NCBI GenBank assembly: GCA_030528025.1
Contig: JAUMZP010000001.1
Location: 434,001-498,000 of the forward strand
DNA from: Candidatus Saccharimonadota bacterium
GTDB lineage: Bacteria; Patescibacteriota; Saccharimonadia; Saccharimonadales; Saccharimonadaceae
Length of the DNA stretch: 64,000 nucleotides
Direction: 5' to 3'
The notes below the pieces were generated by a model. The model made no database searches. It was not told where the DNA came from and worked only from the letters and a program-made list of their open reading frames with translations. A program made the position numbers and the translations under genes. Positions 11,147-59,980 of this stretch are shown in pieces; position 1 is the first letter of the stretch, and each line of letters starts with the position of its first letter.

Positions 11147-12457
11147 CTAGAGTTGAGCTGTGTTGCTACGTGTTAGCTGCTTGTCTGAAGTAGCGTTTGG
11201 ATCAACATAGTACTTGGGGATGCTATGAGCCTGGTTCTCTGGCTCTTCCCAGTATGGGCGTGGCTTATCAGATGCATACAGATTGCTTCTACTGGTGTTT
11301 GAGGTTGTGCTTTGCTGTGCTTCGTCTTGAGCAGCCTTCTCTGTGACATCTGGGTTGGTGACAAGGTCTTTAGTGATTGCTGGGTCAGTGACAGTGATAA
11401 GCTTGAGATGATGTGTATCAATATCTTCATAACTTACATCGACATTATAAACCTTCTTGAGATACTCTGGTGTTGGACTAGCGATACTACCCTGTACGAC
11501 GAGACCGCCTAGCTGGAATTCATGTGGGTTATCTGGGTTATTCTGTACAAAGAGTGGCGAACCTTGCCCTGTGCGGTCATCAAAGCCGTCTTCTGATGAG
11601 ACGAGTAGTGTCTTGGTATGGGCAGCATCGTTATATCCAACGACAAAACCAGATGCAACGACTGGTTTGCCAATCTTGCGCTCATTACCTTGGCTACCAT
11701 AATTAACGACAGTAAGTGGCTGCTCGAGGAGGTCGTCTTGAGTAATTGTCGTAATGATGCCATTTTTTACCTCGAGCGACATCTGGCGGCTTGTTCGGCG
11801 ATAGGCGTGGTTCTCATTTTTTTCAGCAAGAGTCAGAGCGACAATATGCTTGTGAGAAGTATCATAAGGGCCAGGCATCAGCATGGTGCAGCCACCATTG
11901 GGATGAAATTCTGACCCATTGGAGCCTATTGTAATAATGCCAATATTATCCGGGGTGAGATTCTCGAGATCCTCTGTATTGACAACGGTGAGAATAATGG
12001 GGTGGCCCTGCTCGCTATCGTTTGCAGAGTAGGTTATAACACCAGAGTAGAGTACATCTGTCTCTCCTCCTGATATTCTCACCTTAGTAGCAGTAAGAGC
12101 CGGTGCGCCCTCAGAATAGCCATTTACATCAATACCACTATCACGGAAGACATGCTCCCACGCTTCATCTTGAGAACTGAATGGAAGGTCGCTCGGTGTG
12201 CGTGTATAGTCGACGGCTGGTTTGTCGTGGCCAAGGTCAACGCCGTCGTCTAGCTCGGTGTCGCTACAGGCTGGTAATGGGTCGTTGCCTGGGTAGAAAT
12301 CTGGGAGGCAGCTGTAGGCGCCGTATAACGTTGGAAGAGTTATAATTGCGAGACCAGCAATAACCTCCTTCCGCTTTGGGCGGCGGTGAGGCTGCTGTTC
12401 ATTTGGTGATGGTTGTTCTTCTGAGGGTGGTAGTGGTTCGCAATTCTTCTTGACCAT
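11147..12457 (-). CDS. Membrane-anchored trypsin-fold protein, probably inactive
   Basis: About 30 charged cytoplasmic residues precede one membrane helix (VIAGLAIITLPTLYGAYSCL) and a long extracytoplasmic part. This resembles the divergent neighbour at 12600. SGVITYSAND...PIILTVVNTED aligns by eye with the neighbour's segment ending TAAHVV, with Asn where the catalytic His should be. Near the C-terminal third TGQGSPLF keeps the GSPLF of chymotrypsin-like enzymes but has Gln in place of the nucleophile Ser. I infer a pseudoprotease; function unknown. Start 12457 has TATAAT 7 bases upstream; the longer frame to 12496 would begin upstream of that box. Confidence 0.75.
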   Translation of the reverse strand: MVKKNCEPLPPSEEQPSPNEQQPHRRPKRKEVIAGLAIITLPTLYGAYSCLPDFYPGNDPLPACSDTELDDGVDLGHDKPAVDYTRTPSDLPFSSQDEAWEHVFRDSGIDVNGYSEGAPALTATKVRISGGETDVLYSGVITYSANDSEQGHPIILTVVNTEDLENLTPDNIGIITIGSNGSEFHPNGGCTMLMPGPYDTSHKHIVALTLAEKNENHAYRRTSRQMSLEVKNGIITTITQDDLLEQPLTVVNYGSQGNERKIGKPVVASGFVVGYNDAAHTKTLLVSSEDGFDDRTGQGSPLFVQNNPDNPHEFQLGGLVVQGSIASPTPEYLKKVYNVDVSYEDIDTHHLKLITVTDPAITKDLVTNPDVTEKAAQDEAQQSTTSNTSRSNLYASDKPRPYWEEPENQAHSIPKYYVDPNATSDKQLTRSNTAQL

Positions 12458-12599
12458 AATAGTTATTATAGTAGTACATTTTGTATCGTATGACAAATAT
12501 CCATACTACGTGCAGAGGTAGTGTCTCCTCTGTGTCTCCTCTGTCAACTACTATTATAAATTTGTATTTAGCCCCGCAAAGCGCTATAATGGCCAAACC
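12458..12599. promoter_or_regulatory. Divergent promoters of the protease pair
   Basis: Minus strand: TATAAT (12465-12470) 7 bases before the start at 12457. Plus strand: TATAAT (12585-12590) 9 bases before the start at 12600. Between them lies a perfect 11-base tandem repeat, GTGTCTCCTCT twice (12521-12542). This could be a shared activator or repressor site. Confidence 0.65.
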
Positions 12600-13805
12600 A
12601 TGACAGAAATGGCAGTTCGAGAACATAATTTTGACCCGCATTCTCAGCCAAAGACGCGGATGGAGCGACGACGGCTCCAGCAAAAGCTCCAGCGAGAGAA
12701 GAACGCGAATTTTGGCAAAAAGGCACTTAGTGCAGTGGTAGGCGCTGCGGTTGGCTGTATGCCAATGGCTGGCCTGACCTATGTTGGGCATGCTCGGCAG
12801 GAGGCGCAGCGGCCTAATAAGCCACTGCCGCCATGTACGGCGGTTGGTCAACCTTCGTCGCTTGACCTAACGCAGCCCGAGGTGGTCGCTCAGCGTCCGC
12901 CAGTGAGCATTGCCGAGGCGTTGGGCAATCATGAAGCGCTCGAGCAGCAAAAGCACGAGGCTTTGCAAGCAGTGCAGAACTCCATCGTCAAGATAAATGC
13001 TCACGCTCATAATATGGCAGAGGTAGGCGGTGCGAATATCACTGGCAGTGGCTACATCATAGCAATGCCAGATGGTACACCCATGGTAATGACGGCCGCA
13101 CACGTGGTATCTAATAAATATCCTATCCGCCAAGCAGACATCACCTTCCAAACAACTGATGGCCAGACCCATGAGATACAAAAAGGCTGCCATAATGGCG
13201 AAGCACCGCCCGAAGGCCAGTGGAGCTCTGGTATGCCTGATGTAGCGGCATTGAGGCCACATGATGAGCTGTCGGGTAGCTCGCCCCTCCACTTTGCAAC
13301 AGATGAGGAAATAGCGGCAGCGGTACGCGCTGGCCAGCCGTTCTTTGCAGTGGGCTTCCCTGCTAATGCTCCAGTGGAATGGGGGCAACCGATTGCCACG
13401 CCGCAAGTCGATGTGCTCCTCCCTGCTGGGCAGCGTGGAGCTGATGGCAAGATGGCTGTAATCTCGGGCCTTGAGCGGTCGGCCAAGGATGCAAATGATG
13501 TTGACGGGCTAGATGATGCTGTTTTGCCTGGTATGTCGGGCGGTGTGGTCGTTGTGCGTACTCCATCTGGTGAGATGAAGGTCGTTGGGATGGTGCAAGC
13601 AGTAGCCCAGCCAGCCACTGCTGCCGAGCTAAGCGCGTATGGCATTGTAGATAACCCAGAGACGGTACGTGCGTATGAACCACGCATTGCCTATCTTGGG
13701 AGCCCCACAGAGACGCAAGAGGCATATACGAGCCTACAAGCAGAAGACGAGTGGTCGGCAGCGAGGGTAATAATGGACCTTGGTGCAGTCTTTCGCAAAG
13801 ATTAG
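12600..13805 (+). CDS. Membrane-anchored trypsin-like serine protease
   Basis: S1-fold protease of 401 residues. A basic N-terminus (to about residue 41) leads into a weak membrane helix (ALSAVVGAAVGCMPMAGLTYVG), so the catalytic domain should face outside. The triad can be read: His168 in MVMTAAHVV, Asp214 in GMPDVAALRP and Ser313 in LPGMSGGVVV. The oxyanion region GMSGG is intact. No PDZ domain follows, so it is not a standard HtrA. The gene is divergent from the dead-looking homologue at 11147, with both promoters in 142 bases. Substrate unknown; processing of surface proteins is a guess. Confidence 0.85.
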   Translation: MTEMAVREHNFDPHSQPKTRMERRRLQQKLQREKNANFGKKALSAVVGAAVGCMPMAGLTYVGHARQEAQRPNKPLPPCTAVGQPSSLDLTQPEVVAQRPPVSIAEALGNHEALEQQKHEALQAVQNSIVKINAHAHNMAEVGGANITGSGYIIAMPDGTPMVMTAAHVVSNKYPIRQADITFQTTDGQTHEIQKGCHNGEAPPEGQWSSGMPDVAALRPHDELSGSSPLHFATDEEIAAAVRAGQPFFAVGFPANAPVEWGQPIATPQVDVLLPAGQRGADGKMAVISGLERSAKDANDVDGLDDAVLPGMSGGVVVVRTPSGEMKVVGMVQAVAQPATAAELSAYGIVDNPETVRAYEPRIAYLGSPTETQEAYTSLQAEDEWSAARVIMDLGAVFRKD

Positions 13806-40753: not shown

Positions 40754-42355
40754 TTACCGCCCTGAAAACAGGTTGCCGACCCGTTGGACGAAGGTTGGTG
40801 AGTTGCCTGGCATGGCGCTCTTGCTGTTGCTACCACTGTTGGTAGTGGTCTGAGATGCTTCTTTTTTGGCGGAGGATGGGTCGGGGCTGACTTGCTCGGC
40901 CGTGACGAGCAGGCGGTTGAGGTCGGTACCAAGCGGCACACAGGTGATGAGCGTCATAGTTGGCTTGGTGGAGTTGGTTTGCAGCGCGTGCACATCGGTC
41001 GGTTTGACGACTTGTGAGCCAGTGACAGTATAGGTGTAGCGCTTGCCGTTGTAATTGACGTAGATATTGTCACCCTTTTGCATTTGCTCGAGCCGCGCGA
41101 AGATGAACTTATATTTACCATTATCGAGCCAGTCGTTGCTCGAGTGGCCTGAGACGACGAAGTTCCCTACCTCACCAGGCTTCGCATTGGCACCAGGGAT
41201 GTTGAACCACACGACGCCCTTGTCCATAGCGGCGTTAAGCGAGGCTTGGCTAGCAGCGTTGGCGTCCCACACGATGGGTACGTCTACCGCGATCTTAGGG
41301 ATGATAAGCTTGGGATCTGGGCCAACGTTGGTCGAGTCGTATGGGCTAATGATATAGCTCTGAGCATCGAGGTCTCCTGGTGAGGTGTAGGCGGCAACGT
41401 ATGAGAAAAAGACCCGGTTGTACTGCAAGGCCAAGAATAATACCATAACGGAAATACCAGCCACTGCGGGGATGAAGTGTCGGCTATGGCGGACTTTGTT
41501 TGCACCGTTGCGAATCGAGCTCAGTAAGCGCGAGCGCAGGTCGCCCATTGCTTGGCTTTGGGTGAGCTCTTCTAGCTCATCAGTGGTGGCTGCGGTGGTG
41601 TTAGGTGTATCGGCGTCGTGAGCTTTGGCTTGCTCAGCGAGGCGTTCCTCAGCCTTCTTGACTTGGCCTAGATAGTAGCGTTCATAATACTGCTGATAGT
41701 AGTTTTGCCAGGCGCTGTGATATTGCTGCCAGGCGGCCTTTTGGTTGGCGGTAGGCTGGCGTGGCGCACCGGCAGGGCGCTGGCTGTCTGGTTGCTGCGG
41801 CTGATGCGCGCTTGCTGCTGGCTGCTCAGTATGATTGTCTTGAGATGAGGGCTGCTGCTGTGCGTGAGCTGTTGATGAAGCAGCTGTGCGAGTTGGTGAG
41901 GGTTGGGATTGCACCGATGTGCCAATGTAGTGTGCCTGTGGGCGGCTGCGCGGCGTAATAGATGAGATATCGCGCTCGCGGGCGGCAGGTGCTGAGTGGG
42001 TATTTGACGCTGCAGCTGCTTGGCTCTGACGCCACGCTTGCGCGCCTGGACGGTAAGCCGTCTGGCTGTGCTGGACGCCACCTACTGCGTGCCGCACTAC
42101 TGGTACATGGCTGGCTGGTTTGCTCGCGAGATTCGGAACTGAGAAGGTAGCCGCCTTGGCGCTCGTGCTGGGCGCTGGCTGGCGAGTCGGCGCATTACCA
42201 ATGATGGGCTGCATAGTTGGGCGGTTTGTGTTGCCACTACTGCTCGACGTATTGTACAATGCATCAATTTGCCCACGCACCTCACTAAGCCGTGCATCGC
42301 GGCTCTGCGATGAATGCCCTCGTGATGTTGTGCGTGACGGATCTTGTGGTTGCAT
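40754..42355 (-). CDS. Sortase with long disordered cytoplasmic N-terminus
   Basis: Transpeptidase that joins LPxTG-type proteins to the cell surface. Residues 1-290 are Gln/Ala/Pro/Ser-rich, with a Tyr/Gln-rich patch (QYHSAWQNYYQQYYERYY) and a coiled coil. One helix follows (about 295-313), then the sortase fold. Catalytic residues are His404 (VVSGHSSND), Cys472 (TLITCVPLG) and Arg481 (LNRLLVTAE). Usual sortases have only a short cytoplasmic tail, so the N-terminus is remarkable. TATACT lies 10 bases before the ATG. The likely substrate is the LPHTG protein at 43091. Confidence 0.93.
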   Translation of the reverse strand: MQPQDPSRTTSRGHSSQSRDARLSEVRGQIDALYNTSSSSGNTNRPTMQPIIGNAPTRQPAPSTSAKAATFSVPNLASKPASHVPVVRHAVGGVQHSQTAYRPGAQAWRQSQAAAASNTHSAPAARERDISSITPRSRPQAHYIGTSVQSQPSPTRTAASSTAHAQQQPSSQDNHTEQPAASAHQPQQPDSQRPAGAPRQPTANQKAAWQQYHSAWQNYYQQYYERYYLGQVKKAEERLAEQAKAHDADTPNTTAATTDELEELTQSQAMGDLRSRLLSSIRNGANKVRHSRHFIPAVAGISVMVLFLALQYNRVFFSYVAAYTSPGDLDAQSYIISPYDSTNVGPDPKLIIPKIAVDVPIVWDANAASQASLNAAMDKGVVWFNIPGANAKPGEVGNFVVSGHSSNDWLDNGKYKFIFARLEQMQKGDNIYVNYNGKRYTYTVTGSQVVKPTDVHALQTNSTKPTMTLITCVPLGTDLNRLLVTAEQVSPDPSSAKKEASQTTTNSGSNSKSAMPGNSPTFVQRVGNLFSGR

Positions 42356-43090: not shown

Positions 43091-44326
43091 ATGAACAAAC
43101 TAGCAAAATCGTTTGTTGCACTTAGCGTTGTCGCTGGCGCAGCAATCGGTGGCTTGTGGGTAGCACAGCCAGCATTGGCAGCGGTCTCAACAAGTTGTAG
43201 CAAATTTAACGTCGTAGAGTGTGGCACGAAGGATGTACAAACCCTGCGCAGCACCTACTCGAGCCGTGCAGAAATCCGCCAGCTCTACACCCAGTTCGGT
43301 ATTACCGAGCAAATGATCAACGGTGCCAACATGCAAGAAGGTACTGTTGACGCCAACGGTAACATCATCGTTGGCGGCCGAGTTGTTGCCACAAGTGCTC
43401 GCACCCTGCAGGCCAAGGCTGGCACCAACCAAAAGAAGCCAGAAGGTCAGCGCGCTGCTGGTGGTCACACATACTACCAGTACCCAACAGGTGATAGCTT
43501 TATCTTGGGCAAGACAACCTTCAATATCTACGCATGGTTCGACAACAACGGTAAGTTTATTGCCGGTATTATCAAGGACTGTGGTAACCCTACCTGGGGC
43601 ACCCCAACTCCCCCACCAGCTAAGCCAAGCCTGACTTGCGACGCATTGCAAGCTACCCAGGTTTCGCGCAACGAATATCAATTCACCGCCAAGGCAACTG
43701 CTAAGGAAGGTGCAAAGGTCGCTACGTACAAGTACGACTTTGGTGACGGCAAGACTGCCACCGGCGGCGCAACCGTTCGCCACACTTACGCCAAAGAAGG
43801 CACATACACCGTTAAGATGACCGTAGTTGGCAACGAAGGTGGTAGTACCAACGTTGAGAAGACTAGCCAGGACTGCCAGGTTGTTATCAAGGTAACACCC
43901 CAGCCAAGCATCCAGGTATGTGAGCTGAGCAGTAGCACCATCATCACCATCAAAGAAAGCGAATTTGACGCTACGAAGCACTCAAAGAATGTCAAAGACT
44001 GCGACAAGATGAAGGTCTGTGAACTGAAGACTGGTGCTATTGTCACCATTAAGGAAAAAGAATTCGACGAGAAGAAGCACTCAAAGAATACTGCTGACTG
44101 CGACAAGGTCAAGGTCTGCCGTATCTCTGACAAGAAGATCGTCGAAGTTCGCCGCAACGAAGTAAGCAATGACTACACCACCGACATGTCGAAGTGTGAG
44201 CAAACTCCTCCTTCAGTAGTTGAGCTGCCACACACCGGCTTGGGCGGTACCCTCCTGCCGCTGGCTGGTATTGGTAGCCTCACTGCTGCAGGTGCCGCTT
44301 ACTACGTAAGCCGCCACCGCAAATAA
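43091..44326 (+). CDS. LPHTG-anchored surface protein with PKD domain
   Basis: Sortase substrate of 411 residues. The signal peptide is MNKLAKSFVALSVVAGAAIG through AQPALA, with cleavage near residue 30. An N-terminal region of about 170 residues has no known family. A PKD-like domain follows (YKYDFGDGKTATGG, TVRHTYAKEGTYTVKMTV). Three Cys-containing repeats of about 35 residues come next (VCELSSSTIITIKESEF, VCELKTGAIVTIKEKEF, VCRISDKKIVEVRRNEV). The C-terminus is LPHTG at residue 379, a hydrophobic helix and the basic tail SRHRK. Promoter, Shine-Dalgarno site and even codon use suggest high expression. Possible role: surface coat or adhesin. Confidence 0.92.
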   Translation: MNKLAKSFVALSVVAGAAIGGLWVAQPALAAVSTSCSKFNVVECGTKDVQTLRSTYSSRAEIRQLYTQFGITEQMINGANMQEGTVDANGNIIVGGRVVATSARTLQAKAGTNQKKPEGQRAAGGHTYYQYPTGDSFILGKTTFNIYAWFDNNGKFIAGIIKDCGNPTWGTPTPPPAKPSLTCDALQATQVSRNEYQFTAKATAKEGAKVATYKYDFGDGKTATGGATVRHTYAKEGTYTVKMTVVGNEGGSTNVEKTSQDCQVVIKVTPQPSIQVCELSSSTIITIKESEFDATKHSKNVKDCDKMKVCELKTGAIVTIKEKEFDEKKHSKNTADCDKVKVCRISDKKIVEVRRNEVSNDYTTDMSKCEQTPPSVVELPHTGLGGTLLPLAGIGSLTAAGAAYYVSRHRK

Positions 44327-53456: not shown

Positions 53457-53620
53457 AACTAACAATCATTCCTATTGTTTCTTTTCTAGCGTGTCTGCAG
53501 ACCATTATACCGCTAAATGTATGGAAAGAATGTCGTAAAAATAACAGAATAATAATGCGGAGTGTTCAACTTACTCCCCTGCCCGCAAAGGATATAATTC
53601 GCCATGCTATAATATCCCCT

Positions 53621-55288
53621 ATGATTGCCGATATTGCCATTACTGAGAAATCGTTTGGGGCGAAGACGCTGATGACGGATGTAAAGTTTAGTGTGAATAA
53701 TAGCGAAAAAGTGGGCCTAGTGGGGCGCAATGGCGTGGGTAAGTCGACACTGTTTGGTATGCTAACAGGGGTAGATGATGACTATAGTGGCTCGATTATT
53801 TTCAAACGTGGCAGTGTGGTGGTAGCGACGGCCCAAGAGCACCACGACAGTGGTGATATCACAGTGCTCGAATATATCTTGCGCGGTCTGCCGGAATATG
53901 CGCGCCTGCGCCATATCATCACCACCTACCCCGAGACGATGGGCGATGACATGTATAAAATTGAGGCATACACCGCGGCGCTGGAGCGCTTTGGCCAAAA
54001 GGGTTTCTACCAGATTGAGGAGTTAGTAGCGGAGGAGCTAAAGAACTTCCAAATGGCAGGCTATGGTGAGCGGCACCTAGCAAGCCTGAGTGGTGGGCAG
54101 AAGCGCCTAGTGGAGGTGGTAAAGATCATGCACGCCCAGGCCGACCTTGCACTGATCGATGAGCCAACGAACCATATGGATTATGTCGCTAAGAAGCAGT
54201 TTATCGACTGGCTCAAGGGCGCAAAGCAAGCAATGCTCGTCATTACCCACGACCGAGATGTGCTCGCAGAGATGGATCGGATCGTTGAGATAAAAGATGG
54301 CACAGCCCTCAACTACCAGGGTAACTACGATGCCTATCTCCGTCAAAATGCCTCGGCGACAGGCAATGCGATGCATGAGTATGAGCAGGTCGAGCGGCGG
54401 ATTGCTAATGTGAAGGATAAGGTAGTGCAGTTCCGCCGGATGAAGGAGCGAGCGCGCGATCCTGGTACTATCAAGCAGTTTAAGCAGCGTGAGCAGCAGG
54501 CTATGGCCGAGCTTGAGGAGCTCGAGCAGATTGAGAAGCCAACGTTTTGGATTGATCGCGACAACGTGGCACAACTGGAGTATAAGATGGCTGATCGCTA
54601 CCAGAAGTTTAAGGCGCGAACGATTCGCCTCAGTATGCGCGATGGTGCAATGCGAAGCCAGCGTACGCTAGTAGCGGTGCGAGATTTGGCGCTGGGCTAT
54701 GGCGAACGGATTTTATTTGAGGGGGTGAATATTGATCTGCGTGAGGGTGAAGCTGTGGAGCTGCGTGGCCGCAATGGTGCGGGCAAGACGACGCTTATTC
54801 GAGAACTACTCGCCGCGCAAAATCTGATGCAGGACAGAGGTAGCGATACGCCAATTATCTATAGTGGCTCGCTGCAGCTCGATAGCCATATCCGGATTGG
54901 CGTATATGAGCAGGAGATTGCCTCGACATATCTTAACCTCATGCTGGCCCAGGCCATCGAGCAGATGTACCTCGACCGCGGATTGCCAATTGGCCAGACC
55001 AAGCTCCGCCAATTGATGAGCGACTACCTCTTTGCCGAGACGGATCACGATGTGCCACTGGCCCGCCTGAGTGGTGGGCAGAAAGCGCGTTTCCAGATTA
55101 TTAGCATGCTCGCTAACGAGCCGCAGCTACTCATCCTTGATGAGCCTACTAACCACCTCGACCTGCCCAGTATCGAAGAACTTGAGGTGGCGCTGGAGCG
55201 CTATACTGGCGCTATCCTCTACGTCAGTCACGACAACTACTTTCGGCAAAAGTTGGGTGGTGAGGTGGTGCAAATTGGGACGCAGTAA
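53621..55288 (+). CDS. ABC-F family ATPase
   Basis: Ribosome-associated ATPase with two ABC domains and no membrane part. Walker A motifs are GRNGVGKSTLF and GRNGAGKTTLI. Signature motifs are LSGGQKRLVEV and LSGGQKARFQI. Walker B motifs are LALIDEPTNHMD and LLILDEPTNHLD. The linker between domains (VQFRRMKERARDPGTIKQF and the following helices) is the ribosome-contacting part. Members act in translation or antibiotic resistance; which one cannot be decided. The ATG at 53621 has TATAAT (53608-53613, extended TGC) 7 bases upstream; the ATG at 53555 lies before that promoter. Confidence 0.94.
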   Translation: MIADIAITEKSFGAKTLMTDVKFSVNNSEKVGLVGRNGVGKSTLFGMLTGVDDDYSGSIIFKRGSVVVATAQEHHDSGDITVLEYILRGLPEYARLRHIITTYPETMGDDMYKIEAYTAALERFGQKGFYQIEELVAEELKNFQMAGYGERHLASLSGGQKRLVEVVKIMHAQADLALIDEPTNHMDYVAKKQFIDWLKGAKQAMLVITHDRDVLAEMDRIVEIKDGTALNYQGNYDAYLRQNASATGNAMHEYEQVERRIANVKDKVVQFRRMKERARDPGTIKQFKQREQQAMAELEELEQIEKPTFWIDRDNVAQLEYKMADRYQKFKARTIRLSMRDGAMRSQRTLVAVRDLALGYGERILFEGVNIDLREGEAVELRGRNGAGKTTLIRELLAAQNLMQDRGSDTPIIYSGSLQLDSHIRIGVYEQEIASTYLNLMLAQAIEQMYLDRGLPIGQTKLRQLMSDYLFAETDHDVPLARLSGGQKARFQIISMLANEPQLLILDEPTNHLDLPSIEELEVALERYTGAILYVSHDNYFRQKLGGEVVQIGTQ

Positions 55289-55552: not shown

Positions 55553-57817
55553 ATGCTAGTGAACAAAAATAGATCAAGTGCGGGGTTTGCTCTGCCAACA
55601 GTGATCGTGGCATCGGTGGTGGCGATGATGCTACTCCTCGTGGCGGCGTCTGCATCGACGGCGATTCGCGAGGGGCTCTACGCTCAGCACTACCGGCGCT
55701 TAGCCCGTGAGGTAGCAGAAAGTGGCGTCGTTCTTGCCAGTAAATGCCTTGAGCTTAATAACGACCTTGCCCAGTGGTCTAATAGTGCGAAGTTGCGACC
55801 CAACACCGATTGCAAAGGCTCAGTAGTAGCCGGGCGAACCCAGTATATTCAACAGGATGGCAATGTGCGCACGACCTTTGAAGTGGGTGAGCCAGAGCGC
55901 CGCGAAGGGAGTATTCAGCGTATCACGGCAGTGGGCCGAACGGAGCTTATTCGGACGACGGATGGCGCAGTGTGGAAGAGCTACGAGTATCGCCTAGCGG
56001 GCCAAGCGGGCCTCAGCACATTGCTCGATAGTGTCTCGTTTGGCTATGCGGCTGGTGGTGGATTTACATTTAACGGAGCATTTTTTACCGTCATCGATGA
56101 GTTTGGGCGTCCTCGCTCGGCAGGGTTTAATGGCTTTGGCCAGCTCGGTGTTGGCTCAACTACCGATACACTCACGCTCAAGCAATTTAATATTCCTGCT
56201 AACAAGCGCGTCGTGCGCACCTACACCAACTTCCTCTCTCATGGTCGTAACCTATTTGCGCTTACGGAGAACGGCGAGGTGTGGGGTGCGGGGCTGCATA
56301 ACTTTGGGCAGATTGGCAACCCTGGCCAAATTCCTGCGTGGGTGACAAACCCGGTTCAGTTTGCTTTGCCGAGTGCTGATAACGTTGCAACCTTTGTGGC
56401 GCCACTGGGGATTGTCACCTTTGTTGTGACATCCCAAGGGAACGTCTATGCAGCTGGCTCCAACGACAAAGGCGTTGCTGGCATTAACTCAACTGCTCCA
56501 ACAGTAAAGACGCCGACCAAAATGCCCTTCCCTGAGAAGATCCGGGCCGATGCTCATTCCTGGGCGGTCGACAGCAAGACGGCTTATGCGATTGGTGAGA
56601 GTGGTGCGGTCTATGGCTGGGGCAATAATGATTTTGGTCAGCTCGCTCAGGGTGATATCAATGAGCGGCGAGCACCCGTCCGCTTGGGCGACTTCGGCAA
56701 GCCTGGCAAGACCAAGGCAGTGCAGCTCGCCTTTGACGGCGATACGGTCTACATTCGCGATAGTGCAGGAGCAGTCTACTCGGCGGGCAAGACAAACTAT
56801 GGCCAAGCGGGTGTACCGACCTTCCGGCTGCGTGCGGGGGTGTCAGACCGATGTTTGGTAGCAGTGGGAGTAAACCTCAGGACGGAAAAGTGCTCGGGTA
56901 CTGCTGCGAACCAAAAGTGGCACTTCGACCGCACAAACAATGCCCTGCAAGTTGAAGCAAACTCAGGAGCGCCCCAAAACCGCTGTGTCGAAGCAACTGG
57001 CCATAATAATGAAGAGACGCGTATGCAGTGGTGCGCTTGGTGGTCTAATGGCAAACGCTTCGACTTTCGCTACCCAGCAAGTTCGTGGAATCACATCTAT
57101 CTTAGCAATAGTACCGACATTGGCGGCCGAGGCCTGTGCATTGCTGAGGCTAATGGAGCAACCGGTGGCGAAACAAAGATGACTTCGTGCGAGTACTATG
57201 CAGACAGAACATTCTTGCCATACAACCCAACACTCGAGCGTATTGTGTCATCTGGAGTAATAGACATCACGACCGACCAGTACTTTGCCGCTATGGTTTA
57301 TGCCAATGGCGATGTCAAGACCTTCGGCCTCAATAACGGCGCACTAGGTAATGGTGTCTATGTCGATACATCCAATCTTGATGCTCACAAGCGCCAGGTA
57401 TATAACCCAACCCCAGTTAAATTCATTCTCCCTCCTGGCGTTAAGGCTGTTTCGTCCTGGACGACCTCTAACGGTATCGACCCTAAAAATGCGAATGTTT
57501 TCGTCGTCACGAGCGATGGACGCGTCTTTGGTGCGGGGAGCAATGTAACTGGCCAGCTAGGCCTTGGACATGTCGGTGGCGGCACCAATGGTATCTACCC
57601 CACTCCGCAGCAAATGCTTGTTCTTGGCACGCAGGGCAACTTAGCATCATATGTGCGCTCGGGTTATGGCACAACGGTCGTCTATACTAATAATCGCAAG
57701 GTCTTTACGGTAGGTAACAACTCCAACGGCCAGTTGGGCGATGATACAACCACTACCAACCCAACGCCTCGTGCCAACAAGAATACAAATGCCCAGCGCC
57801 ACGTGAAGTTCTATTAG
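55553..57817 (+). CDS. Pilin-like N-terminus fused to RCC1 propeller with ricin-type lectin insert
   Basis: 754 residues. The N-terminus reads KNRSSAGFALPTVIVASVVA, a type IV prepilin-like start (G before F, a long hydrophobic helix), but Thr sits where the usual Glu5 would be, so it resembles minor pilins. RCC1-like blades follow: NGFGQLGVGSTTD, LHNFGQIGNPGQ, YGWGNNDFGQLAQG, SAGKTNYGQAG, later FGAGSNVTGQLGLG and TVGNNSNGQLGDD. Between the fifth and sixth blades is an insert with CLVAVGVNLRTEKC and NQKWHFD, a ricin B-like QxW pattern. It is a likely surface adhesin. Start at MLVNKNRSS, with TATTGT 8 bases upstream. Confidence 0.85.
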   Translation: MLVNKNRSSAGFALPTVIVASVVAMMLLLVAASASTAIREGLYAQHYRRLAREVAESGVVLASKCLELNNDLAQWSNSAKLRPNTDCKGSVVAGRTQYIQQDGNVRTTFEVGEPERREGSIQRITAVGRTELIRTTDGAVWKSYEYRLAGQAGLSTLLDSVSFGYAAGGGFTFNGAFFTVIDEFGRPRSAGFNGFGQLGVGSTTDTLTLKQFNIPANKRVVRTYTNFLSHGRNLFALTENGEVWGAGLHNFGQIGNPGQIPAWVTNPVQFALPSADNVATFVAPLGIVTFVVTSQGNVYAAGSNDKGVAGINSTAPTVKTPTKMPFPEKIRADAHSWAVDSKTAYAIGESGAVYGWGNNDFGQLAQGDINERRAPVRLGDFGKPGKTKAVQLAFDGDTVYIRDSAGAVYSAGKTNYGQAGVPTFRLRAGVSDRCLVAVGVNLRTEKCSGTAANQKWHFDRTNNALQVEANSGAPQNRCVEATGHNNEETRMQWCAWWSNGKRFDFRYPASSWNHIYLSNSTDIGGRGLCIAEANGATGGETKMTSCEYYADRTFLPYNPTLERIVSSGVIDITTDQYFAAMVYANGDVKTFGLNNGALGNGVYVDTSNLDAHKRQVYNPTPVKFILPPGVKAVSSWTTSNGIDPKNANVFVVTSDGRVFGAGSNVTGQLGLGHVGGGTNGIYPTPQQMLVLGTQGNLASYVRSGYGTTVVYTNNRKVFTVGNNSNGQLGDDTTTTNPTPRANKNTNAQRHVKFY

Positions 57818-58169: not shown

Positions 58170-58439
58170 CTACGCGTCTGGCAATAATCCCTTTGCTGTA
58201 AGGAGCTCATCAATCCGAGCTCGGTCGAAGCCATAGACGATTTCGCCAGCAATGTCTGTGACTGGGATACCCTGGGCTTTGCCGCCAGTTTTGGCAGCGA
58301 GCTCATCCTCAGCACCAGGCGTTTTCTCGATGTCTTTGACGGTGTAGTGTACGCCCAGCTTGTCGAGATATTGTTTCTCTGTTTTGCAATAGGCGCACCA
58401 TTCTGCGCTATACACTATAACTGATGGTATTGTACTCAT
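58170..58439 (-). CDS. Glutaredoxin-like protein
   Basis: 89-residue thioredoxin-fold redox protein. The active site is CAYC in VYSAEWCAYCKTEK, near residue 15. KDIEKTPGAEDELA is the usual loop and GIPVTDIAGEIVYGFD holds the cis-proline and the end of the sheet. It reduces disulfides or mixed disulfides with thiols; the reductant in this organism is unknown. AAAGGGGA precedes the ATG and TATACT lies 24 bases upstream, so here a leader is present. Confidence 0.92.
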   Translation of the reverse strand: MSTIPSVIVYSAEWCAYCKTEKQYLDKLGVHYTVKDIEKTPGAEDELAAKTGGKAQGIPVTDIAGEIVYGFDRARIDELLTAKGLLPDA

Positions 58440-58907: not shown

Positions 58908-59153
58908 ATGAGTATGGAGTCTCGTGAGAATGCCCGCTCGCACGGTAGCCAAGTGGTTGGTGTGCTCTGGCGTGCTGCACTAGGGACGACCTGGCGAATG
59001 GCGGTGCCAACTGTTGGGTTGTTTTTGCTCGGAGTCTGGGCAGACTGGCAGTTTGCAACCAAGCCGTGGCTGATGTTTGCTGGCCTCGTGGTCGGCATTG
59101 TCCTTGCGGCTGGGCTCATTAGGCACCAAATTACGGGAGGTCATCGCACATGA
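58908..59153 (+). CDS. AtpI/AtpZ-like ATP synthase accessory protein
   Basis: 81 residues. Two membrane helices (WRMAVPTVGLFLLGVWADW and PWLMFAGLVVGIVLAAGLI), as in the AtpZ/AtpI family (F0F1 assembly helper). It leads the ATP synthase operon. TACAAT (58894-58899) lies 8 bases before the ATG, so the operon begins with a leaderless start. Its stop overlaps the atpB start as ATGA, so translation of atpB is coupled. Confidence 0.78.
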   Translation: MSMESRENARSHGSQVVGVLWRAALGTTWRMAVPTVGLFLLGVWADWQFATKPWLMFAGLVVGIVLAAGLIRHQITGGHRT

Positions 59154-59980
59154 TGTTTTTTGCGGCAGTGCCACACATCTCAGTCAAGGCAGACGAGGTG
59201 TTTTCGATCGCTGGCTGGCCAATTACTAATGCCAATCTCGTTGGTCTGCTGGGTCTCATTGTCTTGGCTTGGCTCATGTTTCGCACGCGGGCAGCGGTGC
59301 TGGGCAAGAAGAAGGCGAATTTTGCAACTCGCTTGACTGTCTGGTGCTTTGAGGGGCTGTACAATACCGTTGGGCAGGTCATCCCCAGCAAGAAATGGAC
59401 GCGGCGCGTTGCCCCACTCGTTATTACGATGTTCTTCTTTATTGCCGCACAATATTGGCTGGGGCTATTACCAGTTGTCGGGCCAGTGATGGTCGGCCAT
59501 ACACCACTATTCCGTGGCCAAAATGCCGATCTTAACATGACCTTTGCCCTCGCAGCCGTTACAATTGTTATGGCGCAGGTATACGCAGCACGCGAGCTTG
59601 GCTTTATAGGTAATCTCAAGCGGTATTTTGTTAATCCACTGCGCGATCCGATCATGTCCTTTGTCGGGATTCTTGAGATTGTGGCGGAGTTCTCGCGCTT
59701 ATTGAGCCTATCCTTCCGTCTGTTTGGTAATGTGCTCGCGGGTGAGATTTTGATCGCGATGATCGCTTACCTTACCCAGGCGGCAATGCCAGCGGTGTTG
59801 CAACCGTTCTATATCTTTGAACTATTTGTCGGTGGTATTCAGGCCTATATCTTCTTTATGCTTTCAACTGTGTTTGTTTCACTCGGATTGGCGCATCACG
59901 GCGGTGATGAGGAAAAAGATACGCACTCAAGCACCTCGACTTCTTCAGACACGAACCTCGTGACCGAAGGAGCAAAGTAA
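59150..59980 (+). CDS. atpB: ATP synthase subunit a
   Basis: Membrane subunit of F0 that forms the ion half-channels. 276 residues with five or six helices. The essential arginine is in LSLSFRLFGNVLAGE. NPLRDPIMSFVGILEIVAEF and FELFVGGIQAYIFFML are the other two conserved blocks. The C-terminus carries a Ser/Thr-rich tail of about 25 residues. The start overlaps the previous stop by four bases; ATGATG gives two possible starts one codon apart. Confidence 0.97.
   Translation: MMFFAAVPHISVKADEVFSIAGWPITNANLVGLLGLIVLAWLMFRTRAAVLGKKKANFATRLTVWCFEGLYNTVGQVIPSKKWTRRVAPLVITMFFFIAAQYWLGLLPVVGPVMVGHTPLFRGQNADLNMTFALAAVTIVMAQVYAARELGFIGNLKRYFVNPLRDPIMSFVGILEIVAEFSRLLSLSFRLFGNVLAGEILIAMIAYLTQAAMPAVLQPFYIFELFVGGIQAYIFFMLSTVFVSLGLAHHGGDEEKDTHSSTSTSSDTNLVTEGAK

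Follow-up and report, generated by a model that had tools for sequence, protein, structure and literature searches.

The window gene and its neighbors

Within the window, by which we mean the whole 64,000-nucleotide stretch that was analyzed, an uninterrupted forward-strand open reading frame runs from an ATG at position 55553 to a stop at 57817, exactly as the original prediction had placed it, and encodes a protein of 754 amino acids. From the N- to the C-terminus, this protein consists of a class III leader, a pilin module, five RCC1 repeats, a ricin-type β-trefoil, and three more RCC1 repeats. Both the full-length protein and its N-terminal module (N-module) were modeled using AlphaFold2 (AF2), and structures were matched using Foldseek and VIA-align. 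The full-length model had a pLDDT of 85.7 and a pTM of 0.78. Structure prediction, which had been proposed as a check on the propeller and the trefoil, supports a pilin module, a propeller, and a trefoil-like insert. No NCBIfam profile matched the 754-residue protein, and a scan for promoters and terminators gave results at chance level. The gene is present in a single copy in its genome of origin (1.03 Mb in 15 contigs).

Three neighboring genes serve here as context and as locus markers. Upstream on the forward strand lies a gene encoding an ABC-F ATPase (53555 to 55288). Downstream are a glutaredoxin-like gene on the reverse strand (58170 to 58439) and, on the forward strand, atpB (59150 to 59980), which encodes F0F1 subunit a and is the first gene of the ATP synthase operon. 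Where relatives have sufficient flanking sequence, most of them also have ABC-F, glutaredoxin, and atpB genes as neighbors of the pilin gene. The window holds the same set, although its glutaredoxin gene lies on the opposite flank from that seen in most relatives.

The N-terminus resembles a type IV prepilin that lacks Glu5

The leader (MLVNKNRSSAG; positions 55553 to 55585, forward strand) ends at a prepilin peptidase site predicted from the family motif, between G11 and F12. The mature sequence starts with F1-A2-L3-P4-T5 and continues into a hydrophobic stretch roughly 21 residues long, so that MLVNKNRSSAG followed by FALPTVIVASVVAMMLLLVAAS has the makeup of a type IV pilin leader. Across the family, a [GA]-F-x-L motif is found in 94 of 95 members, and every one of the 94 members whose motif is readable has G or A at −1. 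Glu5, usual in type IV pilins and important for the packing of pilin subunits, occurs in none of these 94, and the window copy has Thr5 instead; Pro4 is present in 90. Standard prepilin predictors would probably miss an N-terminus without Glu5.

The pilin module spans residues 12 to 155 (positions 55586 to 56017, forward strand). In its AF2 model (35 N-modules; pLDDT 88), a 55-residue helix (residues 14 to 68) is followed by an antiparallel sheet (residues 100 to 153), and a pair of cysteines (residues 65 and 87) is conserved in 92 of 95 family members. Foldseek returned no significant match for the pilin module. VIA-align ranked eight type IV pilins or pseudopilins first, with Z scores of 5.4 to 7.6, a level too low to stand alone, and the remaining matches score 4.5 or less. 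These eight comprise the Thermus competence pilin TT_C0855, a subunit of the XcpGHIJK pseudopilus model, XcpV (twice), EpsI, GspI, Streptococcus sanguinis PilA, and D. nodosus FimA. The matches to XcpV, EpsI, GspI, and PilA, which would point to a GspI-like fold, are all at middling Z scores, and the module carries the signature of Pro4 without Glu5. S. sanguinis PilA likewise lacks Glu5, has the uncommon Pro4 and a GspI-like fold, and is part of a tip complex (PMC9934059). K subunits also lack Glu5, so this residue is not a strict requirement for type IV pilins (PMC9934059). Mainly because both the signature and the fold agree with S. sanguinis PilA, we favor a tip position, a pilus-tip location being inferred from the modeled fold and signal sequence. 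The N-terminus had been predicted to be prepilin-like rather than an ordinary anchor. The pilin-fold model, with a sheet after the helix, and the pilin and pseudopilin matches bear this out and disfavor a plain membrane anchor.

An RCC1 propeller is interrupted by a ricin-type trefoil

Eight RCC1 motifs were identified in the window protein, five N-terminal to the insert (repeats 1 to 5, about residues 176 to 421; positions 56078 to 56815, forward strand) and three C-terminal to it (repeats 6 to 8, about residues 560 to 754; positions 57230 to 57814, forward strand). The predicted RCC1 propeller was recovered. The RCC1-like domain PF25390 matched with an E value of 2.7e-65 (221 bits; cut-off 150) and the RCC1 repeat family PF00415 with 8.5e-29 (100 bits; cut-off 21.7), and a phmmer search against the PDB found UVR8, HERC2, and RCC1. 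The AF2 propeller aligned with UVR8 at a Z score of 32.6 over 349 residues (4.1 Å), the highest among such matches. This alignment covers model residues 220 to 748, which correspond to repeats 2 to 8, leaving one repeat extra relative to the seven of UVR8. While the fold is shared with the RCC1-like domains of UVR8, RCC1, and HERC proteins, those are seven-bladed, belong to eukaryotic intracellular proteins, and have no insert. Chance matches to RCC1 or to the trefoil were ruled out by the Pfam scores and by the conservation of the whole domain order in eight aligned orthologs (32 to 69% identity).

The insert comprises residues 424 to 556 (positions 56822 to 57220, forward strand). In the window copy, the Ricin_B_lectin family (PF00652) matched weakly, with an E value of 5e-4 in the whole protein and 6.8e-6 for the domain alone (26.7 bits, below the cut-off of 29). 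It matched strongly at the same position in orthologs (E values down to 1.3e-26; 93.7 bits in L077) and was detected in 8 of 11 aligned members. The window insert is homologous by alignment to these strong ortholog trefoils. A profile built from the ortholog inserts matched the CBM13 domain of xylanase A (1knl) among ricin-type structures with an E value of 4.3e-34. AF2 placed about 12 short strands between residues 423 and 565 (pLDDT 66 to 86), and all six cysteines of three pairs are kept (Cys 434/447, 478/494, and 529/546). The claim that the insert is a lectin-type trefoil therefore holds for the fold. Unlike CBM13 and other ricin-type trefoils, the window copy is nested in a propeller and has no sugar triads.

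By a simple motif count, Asp/aromatic/Asn-type sugar-site triads number three of three in five relatives (L037, L077, L050, L043, and L168) and zero of three in the window copy and in L031, its nearest trefoil-bearing relative at 69% overall identity. The trefoils of this last pair are only 43% identical, compared with 73 to 76% for the other domains, and dN is 0.56 in the trefoil versus 0.20 elsewhere in the protein. Saturation of the synonymous sites made a test of selection on the trefoil impossible; its fast change could reflect relaxed constraint and not adaptation. From the divergence and the loss of the triads, the window trefoil appears either to have been repurposed or to be in the course of being lost. 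Of the sugar-binding head originally predicted, the trefoil fold stands, but sugar binding by the window copy is doubtful since the canonical triads are lost, though the six cysteines remain. In orthologs with intact triads, the trefoil is probably a working lectin.

The nested trefoil is shared across Saccharibacterial genera

A search of 149 related genomes recovered full-length relatives at about 35 to 69% identity. In an alignment of 11 proteins, the insert lies at the same place in the window protein and eight others, and two relatives (L039 and L040) run through the propeller uninterrupted, which indicates that the trefoil was inserted as a self-contained unit. Scanning public genomes yielded further relatives, the close ones labeled Saccharibacteria. 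An order-wide search of 367 genomes found the N-module in 94, with all but three weak ones belonging to the same taxonomic family as the window.

The same order had been proposed for a search of other genomes, and it was found there: 20 distinct family members from ten Saccharibacterial genera have a pilin module, RCC1 repeats, a trefoil, and RCC1 repeats again (genus codes g1, g9, g23, g29, g37, and g55, with g8, g17, g38, and g57 added by L161, L165, L166, L167, and L172). Nearly all 20 have three RCC1 repeats C-terminal to the insert. In a tree built without the trefoil, all 20 carriers and four non-carriers formed one well-supported clade, within which the window copy grouped with the trefoil-less L039 and L040. 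The tree has no direction, and the simplest reading is a single gain of the trefoil with a few losses.

Several other arrangements were observed during these searches. The pilin gene is duplicated in tandem in L073 (6272 to 8524), L054, and L059, and a frame break splits the second copy in L073. Very large RCC1-rich open frames occur in related genomes (6,781 amino acids in G068:C2 and 3,534 in G076:C36). The same pilin module, with the motif GFALPT, is also present in two isolate genomes of Actinomycetota (about 63% GC), those of Nakamurella silvestris and Gulosibacter macacae (L087, 4001 to 5053; L092, 3956 to 4786). Its presence there could stem from contamination or from a transfer of the gene between the lineages of episymbionts and hosts.

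Different heads occupy a fixed locus

Glutaredoxin and atpB adjoin the pilin gene in all 10 aligned homologs, and ABC-F does so in eight, being absent from the available stretch in the other two. In 44 of 78 non-redundant family members, one or more locus markers are found within 2.5 kb; some of the others have no flanking sequence. The heads of these 44 are RCC1 (n = 10), RCC1 with trefoil (n = 13), or other (n = 21), the last including glycine-rich heads and matches to PA14-like (weak), Big_7 (weak), FGE-sulfatase, and fibrinogen-C domains. We take the FGE-sulfatase match to represent a C-lectin-like fold. On the N-module tree, head type changed 28 times, compared with 46 in shuffles, meaning that changes are many but clustered. 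A gene of this modular pilin kind, with an RCC1 head, is also found at the atpB/ABC-F locus of the cultured strain TM7i (L096, 3971 to 7963). In some relatives (L063, 8898 to 11780; L066, L105, L110, and L187 to L190), a glycine-rich domain of about 240 amino acids splits the pilin module.

The presence of differing heads at the same spot in related species suggests an exchangeable host-gripping part, and such variation is what would be expected if head changes track different hosts. These heads bear on how episymbiotic Saccharibacteria recognize their hosts, for which an RCC1-propeller pilin has already proved important in TM7x. The signature ([GA]FxLP without Glu5), the locus beside atpB and ABC-F, and the catalog of heads together lead to the prediction that head type tracks host.

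Comparison with known pilins and pilus adhesins

The closest known counterpart is PilX2 of TM7x (Nanosynbacter lyticus; Grossman et al. 2025), an RCC1-propeller minor pilin whose deletion leaves 4.6% of host cells bound, down from 10.6% (PMC12206443). Deletion of PilX2 also reduces competition, and the TM7x pilus did not contribute to competence (PMC12206443). Like the window protein, PilX2 is a Saccharibacterial minor pilin with a pilin N-terminus and a C-terminal RCC1 β-propeller, for which software predicts no PilD signal. As described, PilX2 has a seven-bladed propeller lacking a lectin insert, and its gene is one of five pilin genes at locus three, whereas the window protein has eight repeats and a trefoil and is encoded by a lone gene beside atpB. 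The domain order had been put forward as unknown from any described family. This holds for the nested trefoil, for which we found no precedent, but PilX2 has everything except the trefoil. A literature search, with subscription journals outside its scope, found no description of a trefoil inside an RCC1 pilin or of a ricin-type lectin in Saccharibacteria. Both the nested trefoil and the fixed locus with exchanged heads are apparently new.

RCC1 pilins of about 500 amino acids were considered as equivalents of PilX2 (L197, 5286 to 6779, in the TM7i genome; L198, 5823 to 7361; L200, 6058 to 7575; and L201, L202, and L203) and were set apart from the family. They have canonical Glu5 starts (GFTIVEL type) and no match to the N-module. 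Since RCC1 is carried here by Glu5 pilins lacking the N-module, fusion of RCC1 heads to pilins appears, from the sequences, to have happened repeatedly.

Similar parts are arranged differently in other pili. In S. sanguinis, PilA occupies the tip, and the pilin PilC carries a glycan-binding lectin head (PMC9934059). There, the tip pilin and the lectin, which is ConA-like, are separate proteins, whereas the window protein joins a pilin to an RCC1 propeller and a ricin-type trefoil in one chain. Modular type IV pilins, in which a functional module is grafted onto a small pilin, are widespread, S. sanguinis PilB being one and more than 1,200 further examples having been reported (PMC8179133); an RCC1 propeller with a nested trefoil is not among the architectures that we found named there. 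PilY1/PilC of diderm type IV pili is likewise a β-propeller adhesin at the pilus tip (PMC12206443), but PilY1 is a separate non-pilin protein, and the window propeller is fused to a pilin.

A possible role in host attachment

The genome from which the window comes contains a full type IV pilus locus with PilM, N, O, B, T, C, Glu5 pilins, and PilD, as well as a second assembly locus with recA nearby (gene names assigned by position, sequence start, and family hits). Two type IV pilus systems have likewise been described in TM7x. The modular pilin gene lies about 250 kb from the nearest such locus found, and its immediate neighbors are the ABC-F, glutaredoxin, and atpB genes rather than an I-type minor-pilin operon.

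We propose that PilD would remove the leader at the G11/F12 junction and that the pilin module would be added early and end at the pilus tip, because a subunit that lacks Glu5 and bears a head of 600 residues fits poorly inside a filament. The propeller may then contact a surface protein or glycan of the host, the trefoil serving as an accessory binding module, and extension and retraction of the pilus would pull the episymbiont to the host. The suggestion that the protein is a host-attachment device is made plausible by precedent, as PilX2 deletion halves host binding (PMC12206443); the lectin part of that suggestion is doubtful.

Our main reading, to which we assign a probability of roughly 0.6, is that the 754-residue protein is a modular minor pilin of the Saccharibacterial type IV pilus and acts as a tip adhesin, a function that is likely by analogy. 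The absence of a pilin operon around the gene, the lack of Glu5 in all relatives, and the very large head would suit a surface adhesin whose prepilin-like helix is a membrane anchor only, never polymerized into a pilus. We consider this unlikely, as the helix is followed by a full pilin sheet that is conserved together with its two cysteines, pilins account for all the top structural matches, retention of the cleavage motif in 94 of 95 relatives exceeds what an anchor needs, and Glu5 is also missing in tip subunits. More improbable still is a pseudopilin-like role in a piston for secretion or DNA uptake, in which the head would hold cargo instead of a host. T2SS pseudopilins and the Thermus competence pilin are among the best fold matches to the module, but the heads are of adhesion types and differ between species, unlike a conserved secretion or DNA-uptake part, and the TM7x RCC1 minor pilin acts in host binding while its pilus does not act in competence (PMC12206443).

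A further alternative concerns only the trefoil, which in the window protein may be a decaying passenger on a propeller that functions alone. We give this a little less than an even chance; it is compatible with the minor-pilin reading, which needs only the propeller. The missing triads in both the window copy and L031, the trefoil-less nearest relatives, and the low trefoil identity within an otherwise conserved pair all point to decay. Decay would be expected to cost fold-defining residues too, however, and the six cysteines and the open frame are kept.

Returning to the minor-pilin reading, we tentatively extend it to the family as a whole, though we think the extension is more likely to fail than to hold. 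A tip subunit and an adhesin would be fused in one chain at a fixed locus, where heads (RCC1, RCC1 with a ricin-type trefoil, glycine-rich, PA14-like, and C-lectin-like) are exchanged, making this a host-specificity locus of the episymbiont. The trefoil would have been gained once inside the propeller and lost or remodeled in some lineages, including that of the window.

Other genes in the window

Two further gene pairs in the window were noted by eye. A sortase-like gene with a TLITC motif (40754 to 42355, reverse strand) lies beside a gene for a secreted protein ending in LPHTG and a membrane tail (43091 to 44326, forward strand), and the two possibly form a sortase/substrate pair, judging from these motifs. 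The second is a divergent, membrane-anchored pair (11147 to 12496, reverse strand; 12600 to 13805, forward strand) resembling trypsin-type serine proteases or their relatives.
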